A DNA stretch of 5,218 bases from Sulfuricella sp. (GTDB taxonomy: Bacteria; Pseudomonadota; Gammaproteobacteria; Burkholderiales; Sulfuricellaceae), in assembly GCA_030691435.1 (NCBI GenBank), contig JAUYEK010000231.1:1-5218 (forward strand). The letters run 5' to 3'. Shown here one piece after another: positions 1,269-5,194 of the stretch; the first letter of the stretch is position 1, and each line of letters starts with the position of its first letter. The translations under genes and the position numbers were made by a program. Under the pieces are notes generated by a model, which saw nothing but the letters and a program-made list of their open reading frames with translations, was not told where the DNA came from and did no database searches.

Positions 1269-2783
1269 ATGACTGAACATGAATTCAACATCCTTGTCGC
1301 CCAAGGCTACAACCGCATCCCTCTGGTCAGGGAAACCCTGGCCGACCTCGATACGCCCTTAAGCGTTTATCTCAAGCTGGCCAACCGGCCCTATTCCTAC
1401 CTGCTGGAATCGGTGGTGGGGGGCGAGCGTTTCGGTCGTTATTCCTTCATCGGCCTACCGGCCAAAACCCGGATCAGGGTGCATGGCCGCAGCGTGAGCG
1501 TCGAAAATGAGGGCACGGTGCTGGAGCGGGTTGAAACCGATGACCCGTTGCAGTTTGTCCAGGATTACGCCGCGCGCACGAAAGTGGCCGAGCACCCCGG
1601 TCAGCCCCGCTACACCGGCGGGCTGGCGGGCTACTTCGGCTACGATACCATCCGCTACATCGAAAAAAAACTGGCGATCCCTGTGGGTCAGGCTTCAGCC
1701 GTACAAGTCAGGCTGAAGCCTGACCCACTCAATACGCCGGATATCCTGCTGTTGCTGTCGGAAGAAGTTGCGGTGGTGGACAACCTGTCCGGCAAGATTT
1801 ATCTGGTGGTCTATGCTGACCCCGCCCAGCCCGGCGCGTATGCTCGCGGCCAGGCGCGGCTGGACGAAATGCGGGGCCAGTTGAACCGGTCGGTGGAAAT
1901 CCCCGTCACGGCCTCATATCCGCCCGCACAGGCGGCATCGGAATTCGGCGAAGACGCCTTCAAGCGGGCGGTGGAAAAAGCCAAGCGCTACATCTTCGAC
2001 GGCGACATCATGCAGGTGGTGCTGTCCCAGCGCATGTCGCAGCCCTTCGCCGCCTCGTCGCTTACTCTCTACCGCGCATTGCGCTCGCTCAACCCTTCCC
2101 CGTACATGTTCTATTACGACATGGGCGATTTCCAGGTGGTCGGCTCTTCGCCGGAAATTCTGGTGCGACTGGAAGAGGAAACCGTCACCGTGCGCCCGAT
2201 CGCCGGCACCCGCCCGCGCGGCAAGACCCGCGAAGAGGACGAGGCGCTGGCCGCCGACCTGCTGGCCGACCCCAAGGAACTGGCCGAACACCTGATGCTG
2301 ATGGACCTGGGCCGCAACGACGCAGGGCGCGTCGCCCAGACCGGCTCGGTCAAGGTCACCGAGAACATGGCCATCGAGCGTTACTCCCACGTCATGCACA
2401 TCGTCTCCAACGTCGAGGGCAAGCTGAAAAGCGGCCTGAACGCGATGGACGTATTGCGCGCCACCTTCCCGGCGGGCACCGTGTCCGGTGCGCCCAAGGT
2501 GCGCGCGATGGAAATCATCGACGAACTGGAACCGACCAAGCGCGGCATCTACGCCGGCGCGGTGGGCTATCTCGGCTTCAATGGCGACATGGACCTGGCC
2601 ATCGCCATCCGTACCGCAGTGGTCAAGGATGGCACGCTCTACGTCCAGGCGGGAGCGGGTATCGTCGCCGACTCGGTGGCGGACAGCGAGTGGACGGAAA
2701 CCCAAAACAAGGCCCGTGCCGTGCTGCGCGCGGCGGAATTGGCGCTGGGCGGGTTGGGGAACGAAGAAGGAAAAACCATTTGA
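1269..2783 (+). CDS. trpE: Anthranilate synthase component I
   Basis: With TrpG, TrpE converts chorismate and glutamine-derived ammonia to anthranilate, the first committed step of tryptophan synthesis. The 504-aa protein has the N-terminal domain with the LLES motif (45-48), linked in the family to tryptophan feedback inhibition, and a complete C-terminal chorismate-binding domain. Its motifs are PIAGTRPRG (from 310), [11 protein letters not shown] (341-351), GAPK (407-410) and [11 protein letters not shown] near the end. The ATG at 1269 is chosen because MTEHEFNIL fits the family; the in-frame GTG at 1233 would add a Gly-rich stretch encoded by the repeat. Residues 139-153 are encoded by a palindrome between EKKLA and PDPLNTPDI, a likely in-frame insertion in a variable loop. 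All catalytic motifs are intact, so it is probably functional. PabB is less likely given the full N-terminal domain and trp neighbours. Confidence 0.97.
1683..1728. repeat. Perfect palindrome inside the trpE coding region (family D)
   Basis: The left arm GTGGGTCAGGCTTCAGCC (1683-1700) is the exact reverse complement of the right arm at 1711-1728, with a 10-nt loop (1701-1710). The right half also contains a nested palindrome, GTCAGGCT-GA-AGCCTGAC (1707-1724). It encodes TrpE residues V139 to P153. From memory, GTCAGGCTGAAGCCTGACC-like palindromes are dispersed intergenic repeats in some proteobacteria. Family membership needs a genome-wide search. Confidence 0.93.
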
Positions 2784-2861: not shown

Positions 2862-3431
2862 ATGCTGCTAATGATCGACAACTATGACTCTTTCACTTGG
2901 AACCTGGTGCAATATTTTGGTGAACTGGGGGAGGATGTGCTGGTGTTCCGCAACGACGAAATCACCGTGGAGCAGGTCGCGGCGCTCAAGCCCGACTATA
3001 TCGTGATTTCCCCCGGGCCGTGTACGCCCAACGAGGCGGGCATCTCGGTGCCGCTGATCCAGGAATTTGCCGGCAAGGTGCCGATTCTCGGCGTTTGCCT
3101 CGGCCACCAGAGCATCGGTCAGGCCTTCGGAGGGAAGATTGTCCACGCTGCGCAGCTGATGCATGGCAAGACCTCGATGATCCACCACAAGGACACGGGC
3201 GTGTTCAAGGGCTTGCCCAATCCGTTCCGCGCCACCCGCTATCATTCCCTGGTGATCGAGCGCGAGAGTATCCCCGATTGCCTGGAAATTACCGCATGGA
3301 CGGACGACGGCGAGATCATGGGAGTGCGCCACAAAACGCTGGCGGTGGAAGGCGTGCAGTTCCATCCCGAATCCATCCTGACCGAATACGGCCATGAGAT
3401 GCTGGCTAATTTTTTGAAGGAGAAACGGTAG
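2862..3431 (+). CDS. trpG: Anthranilate synthase component II (class I glutamine amidotransferase)
   Basis: TrpG hydrolyses glutamine and channels ammonia to TrpE. The 189-aa stand-alone protein is of normal family length and begins [14 protein letters not shown], the standard TrpG/PabA N-terminus. The catalytic triad is visible: Cys79 in GVCLGHQ, and His168 and Glu170 in VQFHPES. The oxyanion-region SPGPCTP is at 50-56 and the HGKTS segment is in the middle. A GAAGGA ribosome-binding site supports the start at 2862. It follows trpE after a 78-nt spacer containing a palindrome. In organisms with one such gene the subunit also serves PabB in folate synthesis; whether that holds here cannot be seen. 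The TAG stop is followed by a family-C repeat and the DUF559 gene. Confidence 0.97.
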
Positions 3432-3433
3432 TA

Positions 3434-3472
3434 CCCCCTCTCCCCAGCCCTCCCCCGCGAGGGGGGAGGGAG
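3434..3472. repeat. Family-C repeat after trpG (copy 2, opposite orientation to copy 1)
   Basis: CCCCCTCTCCCC-AG-CCCTCCCCC is followed by a 9-bp hairpin, CCCTCCCCC (3448-3456) with GGGGGAGGG (3462-3470). It starts three bases after the trpG stop. Its 37-nt core (3436-3472) matches 3872-3908 in the same orientation with about 5 mismatches, so the DUF559 gene lies between two direct copies. Confidence 0.87.
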
Positions 3473-3538
3473 TAAGTCGGCTGGATGCAAGTGGAGCGGA
3501 GGAGGTGTGGGAGATTCCTTACGGGGAGAAGGGATGGC

Positions 3539-3919
3539 ATGCCCACAAAGCTGACAAACTTTGCCCGCCAGTTGCGGACAAACTCGACCGACACCGAAAG
3601 TTTGTTATGGCGACACCTCCGGGCGAGTCGGTTTGACGACTACAAGTTCAAAAGGCAGCAGCCACTTGGAGGCTACATCGTTGATTTTGTCTGTTTTGAA
3701 TCCAGGTTGATTATCGAACTGGACGGAGGGCAACATGCAGATCAAGAGGACGCTGATAAAATTCGCGACCAATGGTTGAATAGCCAAGGGTTTCAAATTT
3801 TGAGATTCTGGAACAATGAAGTATTGACGAATTTGGAGGGGGTGATGCAGTGTATCCATGTGGCGCTGTCACCCTCTCCCCGACCCTCCCCCGTCAAGGG
3901 GGAGGGAGAAAAACAGTGA
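3539..3919 (+). CDS. DUF559 (Vsr-like endonuclease fold) protein inserted in the trp cluster
   Basis: The 126-aa product matches the DUF559 pattern. It has FARQLRTNSTDTESLLWRHL (8-27), YKFKRQQPLGGYIVDFVC (35-52), IIELDGGQH (58-66) and GFQILRFWNNEVL (84-96). The family is related to very-short-patch-repair endonucleases; Asp49, Glu60, Asp62 and His66 are candidate active-site residues, but its substrate is unknown. The start at 3539 is favoured by an AAGGGA purine run 5 nt upstream and by family length; an in-frame ATG at 3485 would add 18 non-conserved residues. Residues 111-126 (SPSPRPSPVKGEGEKQ) are translated from a family-C repeat and are not part of the domain. The gene is visibly more AT-rich than the trp genes, suggesting later arrival. 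No role in tryptophan synthesis is known or implied. Confidence 0.88.
   Translation: MPTKLTNFARQLRTNSTDTESLLWRHLRASRFDDYKFKRQQPLGGYIVDFVCFESRLIIELDGGQHADQEDADKIRDQWLNSQGFQILRFWNNEVLTNLEGVMQCIHVALSPSPRPSPVKGEGEKQ
3872..3908. repeat. Family-C repeat overlapping the 3' end of the DUF559 gene (copy 3)
   Basis: It is in the same orientation as the copy at 3436-3472. CCCTCCCCC (3884-3892) pairs with GGGGGAGGG (3898-3906). It encodes most of the low-complexity Ser-Pro-rich tail of the upstream protein. Confidence 0.87.
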
Positions 3920-3970
3920 TATGCCACGCCTTCCCTACTGGAGGCGAGGGTGAAAATATACAGTGCAAAA

Positions 3971-4007
3971 CCCCCTCCCCCCTCGCGGGGGAGGGTTGGG
4001 GAGAGGG
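3971..4007. repeat. Family-C repeat in the DUF559-trpD spacer (copy 4)
   Basis: A C-rich arm followed by a G-rich arm and TTGGGGAGAGGG, in the orientation of the trpE-leader copy and inverted relative to the two copies flanking the DUF559 gene. The hairpin loop is short. G-runs of 3 or more at 3987-4007 again fit a quadruplex pattern. Confidence 0.86.
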
Positions 4008-4008
4008 C

Positions 4009-4077
4009 AATTCAAAGCAAGCGCCTTTTTCTATTGCCCCCTCTCCCCCTGTGGGAGAGGGTTGGGGAGAGGGGAGG
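4009..4077 (+). repeat. Family-C repeat forming the trpD leader (copy 5, near-duplicate of the trpE leader)
   Basis: 4009-4074 repeats 1191-1256 with about 5 mismatches, including about 25 nt upstream of the palindrome itself (shared CAAGCGCCTTT at 4018-4028 and 1200-1210). CCCTCTCCC/GGGAGAGGG can form a hairpin. The last G-run merges into the GGAGG ribosome-binding site of trpD. Confidence 0.88.
4073..4077 (+). promoter_or_regulatory. Strong Shine-Dalgarno of trpD
   Basis: GGAGG is placed 5 nt before the ATG at 4083. It overlaps the end of the family-C repeat, so folding of the repeat could mask it. It decides for the start at 4083 against in-frame upstream starts such as 3963. Confidence 0.85.
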
Positions 4078-5111: not shown

Positions 5112-5194
5112 CCACAGAGGCACAGAGACACAGAGAACACCGGCTTTTTGAGATTGGGGTTTTGCCCTACTCTGTGCCTCTGTGTCTCTGGGGT
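5111..5194. repeat. Family-A-like palindrome (CACAGAGG type) in the trpD-trpC spacer
   Basis: The left arm (5111-5135) begins at the last base of the trpD TAA and reads ACCACAGAGGCACAGAGAC onward. The right arm (5170-5194) is its reverse complement at 22 of 25 positions; the loop is 34 nt. It is a variant of the CCGCAGAGG palindromes at the other junctions, with A in place of several G/C bases. It ends 9 nt before the trpC ATG. The loop holds a short TTTTT, but it is not placed like a terminator. Confidence 0.88.

Follow-up and report, generated by a model that had tools for sequence, protein, structure and literature searches.

An in-frame REP pair within trpE of a Sulfuricella genome and its probable route into the gene

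INTRODUCTION

REPs that lie in frame within genes have been published before. Passages of Di Nocera et al. (2013, PMC3733652) describe GTAG and CGTC REPs, and dimers of these, within coding sequences, tRNA synthetase and recB genes among them, with some copies in frame; they also describe RAYT genes flanked by GTAG REPs and mention the in-frame palindromic elements of Rickettsia. REPINs, as set out in part of PMC3116915, consist of two inverted REP sequences that form one hairpin-capable unit and are linked to RAYT genes. Rickettsia palindromic elements (RPE; Ogata et al., as related in passages of PMC3733652, PMC6649704, and PMC10969869) are palindromic, lie in frame, and occur in unrelated genes.

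Here we describe a palindromic insert in trpE in a 5,218-nt stretch of DNA from Sulfuricella sp. (hereafter the window, meaning the whole stretch that was analysed). Because the passages of PMC3733652 describe REPs and dimers inside genes, the insert belongs to a known kind. In particular, it resembles the GTAG REPs of those passages in having a short stem, a 2-nt loop, a GTRG-type tag on the outside, head-to-head dimers, and some in-frame copies, and differs from them in that the trpE case has a resolved empty site, with native bases replaced at a shared 9-mer. It resembles REPINs, as those are presented in part of PMC3116915, in its two inverted REP sequences, its single hairpin-capable unit, and its link to RAYT genes, and differs from them in that the two stems differ in sequence (a heterodimer) and the copy lies inside a conserved enzyme gene. 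A prior reading of the window made from its letters alone (the sequence-only reading) had likened the insert to RPE. The likeness is apt as an analogy, the element being palindromic, in frame, and present in unrelated genes, but does not extend to length or type: RPE are ~150 bp according to a passage of PMC10969869, whereas the element here is 46-48 nt, carries a GTRG tag as a REP pair, and occurs in a betaproteobacterial lineage.

The passages of PMC3733652 on REPs in genes name neither trpE nor Sulfuricella. A literature search combining trpE with REP terms found no report, and a search combining Sulfuricella with palindromic repeat gave matches that are unrelated by title and abstract start. 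The unusual parts of the case are the resolved empty site, the proposed seeded replacement, and the recurrence at the same TrpE site.

RESULTS

A perfect palindrome in the trpE reading frame

The gene that carries the insert is trpE (positions 1269-2783, plus strand), encoding anthranilate synthase component I of 504 aa (Pfam PF00425 and PF04715). Its dN/dS against the related genome G006 is 0.053 with the insert region dropped, indicating, as far as substitution patterns tell, strong purifying selection and an intact enzyme gene. An inverted-repeat search returned a left arm at 1683-1700, a 10-nt loop at 1701-1710, and a right arm at 1711-1728, all given on the plus strand; the 18-nt arms are 100% complementary. 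The repeat codes for TrpE residues 139-153, and the trpE frame is the only one of the six that is free of stop codons through the 46-nt stretch 1683-1728, both exactly as the sequence-only reading had it. Residues 139-153 would be made as part of TrpE. The repeat is the longest perfect inverted repeat in the window when loops of up to 20 nt are considered, and in 60 dinucleotide shuffles of the window no arm exceeded 10 nt (mean of the longest arms, 8.4). The DNA fold of 1679-1732 has an energy of -23.9 kcal/mol and a z score of -10.4.

The element is a GTRG-tagged REP pair

Alignment of copies (alignment A1) and a match to a covariance model (R1) place a 48-nt element at 1682-1729 (plus strand). 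REP unit 1 (1682-1704, plus strand) comprises an outward GTGGG tag and a hairpin that is imperfect in the window copy; REP unit 2 (1707-1728, minus strand) is inverted and comprises the hairpin GTCAGGCTGAAGCCTGAC and an outward tag. The consensus from 56 extracted places, TGTGGGTACGGCTTCAGCCGTACATGTCAGGCTGAAGCCTGACCCACA, is 48 bp long and contains two adjacent inverted hairpins with outward GTRG tags, both hairpins having short stems and 2-nt loops; most rows of A1 have GTGGG or GTAGG as the outer tag. Across 25 hand-picked copies from the 56 places, the two-hairpin structure pairs 96.4% of cells, with 7 covarying pairs and 18 cells changed on both sides, values as high being reached in 0 of 500 shuffles by a control that leaves kinship among the copies in; slid structures reach at most 2 pairs. 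At pair 4-47, for example, the 25 rows hold GC 18 times, AU 4 times, and GU 3 times. A single long hairpin was considered as the ancestral structure and rejected as weaker than two hairpins (88.4% paired, 4 pairs, 7 cells). Together with the many genomic copies, these features identify the element, on comparative grounds, as a GTRG-tagged REP pair of REPIN-like form.

The window copy has TCAGGCT in its left arm in place of TACGGCT, a variant that perfects the long palindrome but disrupts the first small hairpin. The TCAGG variant is also present in G006:C158 and G001:C14:6163; therefore, the perfect long palindrome was probably inherited from a subfamily of the element.

The sequence-only reading had proposed a dispersed element, and further copies of the arm sequence are indeed present in the host genome. 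Searches of the window's own genome (G000; 453 contigs, 79% complete) gave 14 match rows, two of them the window copy itself on its two strands, and the element occupies at least 10 places there. With 1679-1728 as query, G000 has five near-full-length places at 86-92% identity plus shorter pieces, and G006 has one place at 98%. The loci fetched from nine genomes, which hold a subset of all copies, contain 132 distinct places, 10 in G000 and 76 in G001. R1 matches 11 of 12 genomes of the genus, in a scan of 150 candidates per genome in which rows count both strands and the copies used to build the model necessarily match; the window copy, itself one of the 25 rows from which R1 was built, scores 68.2 bits (E 1.6e-16). 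Outside the genus, DNA matches were found in 3 of 49 other genomes (G015, G020, and G054).

Relatives have an empty site

A shorter linker in related TrpE proteins, as posited in the sequence-only reading, is borne out. Among 110 trpE loci (30 from a genome search and 80 from genome contigs, in overlapping sets that include the window's own), the distance between query residues 128 and 166 is 29 residues in 106, 31, 32, and 33 in one each, and 39 in the window only. A database search for TrpE scored 7,999 candidates and found 7,910 proteins; in the 120 listed and compared, the corresponding segment is 31 residues in 116, 34 in one, 35 in one, and 41 in two, namely the window protein (P0001) and P0018. 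The site is also empty in the partial trpE of G001, and the linker is shorter in all four solved TrpE homologues for which alignments were listed. In a protein search of plasmids, TrpE relatives reach at most 63% identity among the 20 matches listed. Homologues of equal length without a palindrome, or a host genome without other copies, had been set beforehand as grounds for giving up the insertion; neither was encountered.

The closest named record is L075, from a Sulfuricella sp. metagenome-assembled genome; judged by length and sequence, it is the very contig of G006. Blastn segments between the window and L075 stop at 1675 and restart at 1734, with flanks 94% and 90% identical. By this and by codon comparison, the 58 nt at 1676-1733 (plus strand) replace 28 nt of the relative, a net gain of 30 nt or ten residues; the stretch that differs is thus larger than the element itself, at 46-48 nt. 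The empty site of G006 reads CTG GCC CAC GCC GTC AAG CCT GAC GTG CTG GGC ACG.

The sequence-only reading had placed the insert in a tolerant surface loop. A predicted structure has a low-confidence loop at residues 139-148 (pLDDT <50), which supports a tolerant loop, as do the shorter linkers of the four solved homologues, although the insert is present in the window row alone of the underlying alignment, which by itself lowers confidence at these residues. The model predicts a disordered loop for the insert, with a helix on one side and a strand on the other. Because the frame is stop-free, the conserved Lys-Pro-Asp codons are kept, and the loop is predicted to be disordered, the insert is likely tolerated; judged from the model, it is probably harmless to the enzyme, and we infer that it is neutral for TrpE.

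The exchange may have been seeded on nine shared bases

The nine bases AAGCCTGAC (1716-1724, plus strand), codons Lys150-Pro151-Asp152, occur in the right arm of the element and also, natively, in trpE of the closest relative. Asp152 is invariant in 42 aligned TrpE proteins, and Lys150 and Pro151 are kept in at least 90%. The sequence-only reading had left two choices, that the element landed beside a fortuitously matching sequence or that it replaced it. The comparison narrows this choice: AAGCCTGAC is already native in the closest relative, and the bases on both sides of it have been replaced. A clean insertion would have left these flanking bases in place.

We think it rather probable that the 48-bp REP pair in trpE duplicates a copy from elsewhere in the chromosome, brought in by an exchange that the nine shared bases seeded, and homology-seeded exchange is the likeliest route into the gene. 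On this reading, the simplest one, the element would have been copied in at the shared bases, replacing native sequence on both sides of the 9-mer.

The position of the 9-mer is consistent with this route. In the 1,458 nt of G006 trpE scanned, no 9-mer of the element occurs other than AAGCCTGAC, which sits at the insertion point. In seven trpE genes of the genus, an element 9-mer occurs in 22 of 9,895 30-nt windows, all 22 from the insertion place, and in eight other loci of the genus in 201 of 35,442 (~0.6%). Against this route, the coincidence was noticed after the fact, and of the eight other loci of the genus compared at this site (L047-L054), five carry AAGCCGGAC or AAGCCGGAT, one carries AAGCCCGAT, and two (L053 and L054) carry AAGCCTGAC. 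Also against it, a search of the 12 genomes, including the 79% complete G000, found no donor copy with the trpE right flank and none with the trpE left flank, matches to the latter with up to two mismatches being slightly more numerous than in a backward-read control.

As a separate observation made by eye, taking the six central bases out of the hairpin GTCAGGCTGAAGCCTGAC (1707-1724) gives GTCAAGCCTGAC, a native 12-mer of G006.

A second filled TrpE in another clade

P0018, a TrpE from a separate branch, carries the same insert at the same site as the window. In a 35-protein tree built after removal of the linker, P0018 groups with P0021, which has an empty site (support 99/96), and the window falls among empty sisters in another clade (support 98/94). 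Because P0018 and the window lie in separate clades with empty sisters, the filled site would have arisen twice, moved between lineages, or been lost many times. A motif check of 154 proteins, to which P0043, P0105, P0121, and P0126 did not fit, found the insert in the window protein and P0018 only; P0043 and P0105 are not of the 41-residue class in the 120-protein list. A region search with P0018 returned 49 proteins at E <=10 among 100 candidates; the window protein was not listed, so the search is not exhaustive.

Movement of a filled trpE segment between lineages of the genus by recombination, such that the window and P0018 trace to one insertion event, is possible, but we lean against it. 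The identical site, the similar residues outside it (TPV...PDPLDT in P0018, IPV...PDPLNT in the window protein), and the empty site in P0021, the sister of P0018, would all fit such a transfer. However, P0018 keeps the residues of its own clade (GRLA and LLLQSEE) directly outside the insert, and the tract moved would therefore be just ~60 nt; the pattern would also be accounted for if the primed site had been filled on two occasions.

In-frame copies in other genes

A search within the fetched loci for in-frame copies alone, one blind to selection for frame, revealed that 22 of the 132 element places lie within an open frame that spans them with at least 40 codons on each side. The spanning frames make up 24 rows, 23 of them distinct; a Pfam scan covered 20 (all except L156:2970-3302, L276:1400-1792, and L177:1160-2446) and gave families for 6 and none for 14, the latter probably being shadow frames. 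Seven of the 132 places are in Pfam-supported frames: TrpE (G000), IleS (G001), ValS (G005), a PF02578 laccase-family protein (G003), and a PDDEXK-domain nuclease (two places in G001 and one in G007, two of the three being partial). In-frame insertion in unrelated genes, as in Rickettsia, is thus seen here in all five of these protein families.

Orthologues of the in-frame hosts align on both sides of the copy, and the linkers are shorter in other species. The laccase site in G009 has a degenerate copy of the element at the same position. The same linkers are often filled by other repeat families, in IleS of G007 and in ValS of G001, G003, G007, and G009. The REP pair within IleS of G001 follows AAATCCCCC, which also starts the G007 insert, suggesting that insertions in IleS were layered.

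Several related observations were made in passing. At the IleS loci L285 and L288, two separate linkers hold in-frame repeats of differing families in several members of the genus. The PDDEXK nuclease gene of G000 has two in-frame 57-nt palindromes of another GTAG REP family (L313:1750-1806 and 2995-3051), with perfect 23-nt arms. Two further long open frames of G001 contain a longer form of the element in frame (L342:2336-2491 and L343:2093-2221); they resemble a fused oligopeptide-transporter ATPase and SMC.

RAYT-type genes and transposition

In G001, a relative of the window's genome, a Y1 transposase gene of 149 codons (G001:C6, L208:1953-2402) has four full copies and one partial copy of the element within ~250 nt, and is thus a RAYT gene flanked by the same REP. 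A relative of this gene in G005 (51% identical) has the hairpin in its GTCGGGCTTCAGCCCGAC version as flanks, and one in G009 (57% identical) has a different GTAGG palindrome on one side. With the element profile, 30 distinct Y1/RAYT loci gave a match at 2 only, G001:C6 and, weakly, G005:C2. No RAYT gene adjoining the element was found in G000 (79% complete): the sole Y1 gene found there (G000:C6:4859-5431) shares 33% identity with the G001 RAYT within the part that matches, and the nearest element copy is ~1.7 kb off, beyond another gene. RAYT-type (Y1, HUH) transposases likely spread the element family.

The main rival to homology-seeded exchange is clean RAYT transposition beside or into the Lys-Pro-Asp codons, followed by deletions and drift that trimmed both sides. 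The existence in the genus of a RAYT-type gene surrounded by the element (in G001) speaks for this reading. Target-site duplication, the mark of a classical MITE, was not visible by eye at the filled trpE, IleS, ValS, and laccase sites, which also speaks for clean transposition; Y1 transposases are not expected to produce one. Against it, native bases are gone on both sides of the 9-mer even though the flanks are closely similar to L075, and two separate trims would be needed. We consider clean transposition unlikely.

DISCUSSION

The trpE insert is a resolved case of a selfish repeat within a gene for an enzyme of central metabolism, with the empty and the filled gene both in hand. The genus has run the same experiment again in IleS, ValS, the nuclease, and other proteins, at times filling one linker with repeats of more than one family, and it is therefore well suited to asking where proteins can accommodate insertions and by what route REPs enter genes; the activity of TrpE in its filled and empty forms would be easy to assay. 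A broader reading, which we put forward as speculation and doubt more than we believe, is that conserved enzyme genes serve as landing pads wherever linker codons recreate part of a REP arm, as AAGCCTGAC does for Lys-Pro-Asp. REP copies already in the chromosome would be pasted there by homology-seeded exchange without transposition, the same TrpE linker would be filled repeatedly across lineages, and proteins of the genus would grow by translating repeats.

It is highly improbable that the hairpin has been kept as a regulator of the trp operon mRNA, for example through ribosome stalling or altered decay. The RNA hairpin is very stable (-39.7 kcal/mol) and lies in a gene upstream of trpG and trpD. 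However, it is missing from nearly all relatives examined, the same element occurs in unrelated genes, and the left-arm variant that perfects the palindrome recurs in G006:C158 and G001:C14 and is not special to trpE. A regulatory role was rejected, hairpin stability being all that supports it.

An assembly chimera or ordinary variation in linker length, which the fragmentation of G000 and the varying linkers of other proteins in the genus might suggest, has next to no likelihood, given that P0018, a second database protein, has the same insert (which rules out an artefact), that the frame is kept and the gene order is unbroken on both sides, and that the inserted DNA resembles, at 86-92%, five near-full-length members of a repeat family in G000 and, at 98%, one in G006.

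Other repeats in the window

A DUF559 gene (3485-3919; Pfam PF04480) lies between trpG and trpD, in the stretch 3436-4007, and is flanked by 38-nt inverted repeats that are 95% complementary. Because L076 has ~10 nt between matching ends in the trpG-trpD gap while L075 matches most of 3436-4007, the trp operon seems to carry a mobile, endonuclease-like cassette at this point.

Intergenic palindromes of other repeat families are located at 397-459, 2784-2847, and 5113-5184, with arms of 27 nt (89%), 25 nt (92%), and 15 nt (100%), respectively. A further repeat, CCCTCTCCCC...GGGGAGAGGG, is present in five copies in both orientations (1219-1255, 3436-3475, 3872-3911, 3971-4007, and 4037-4073), and similar CCTCTCC repeats are seen by eye in frame inside ValS of several members of the genus.
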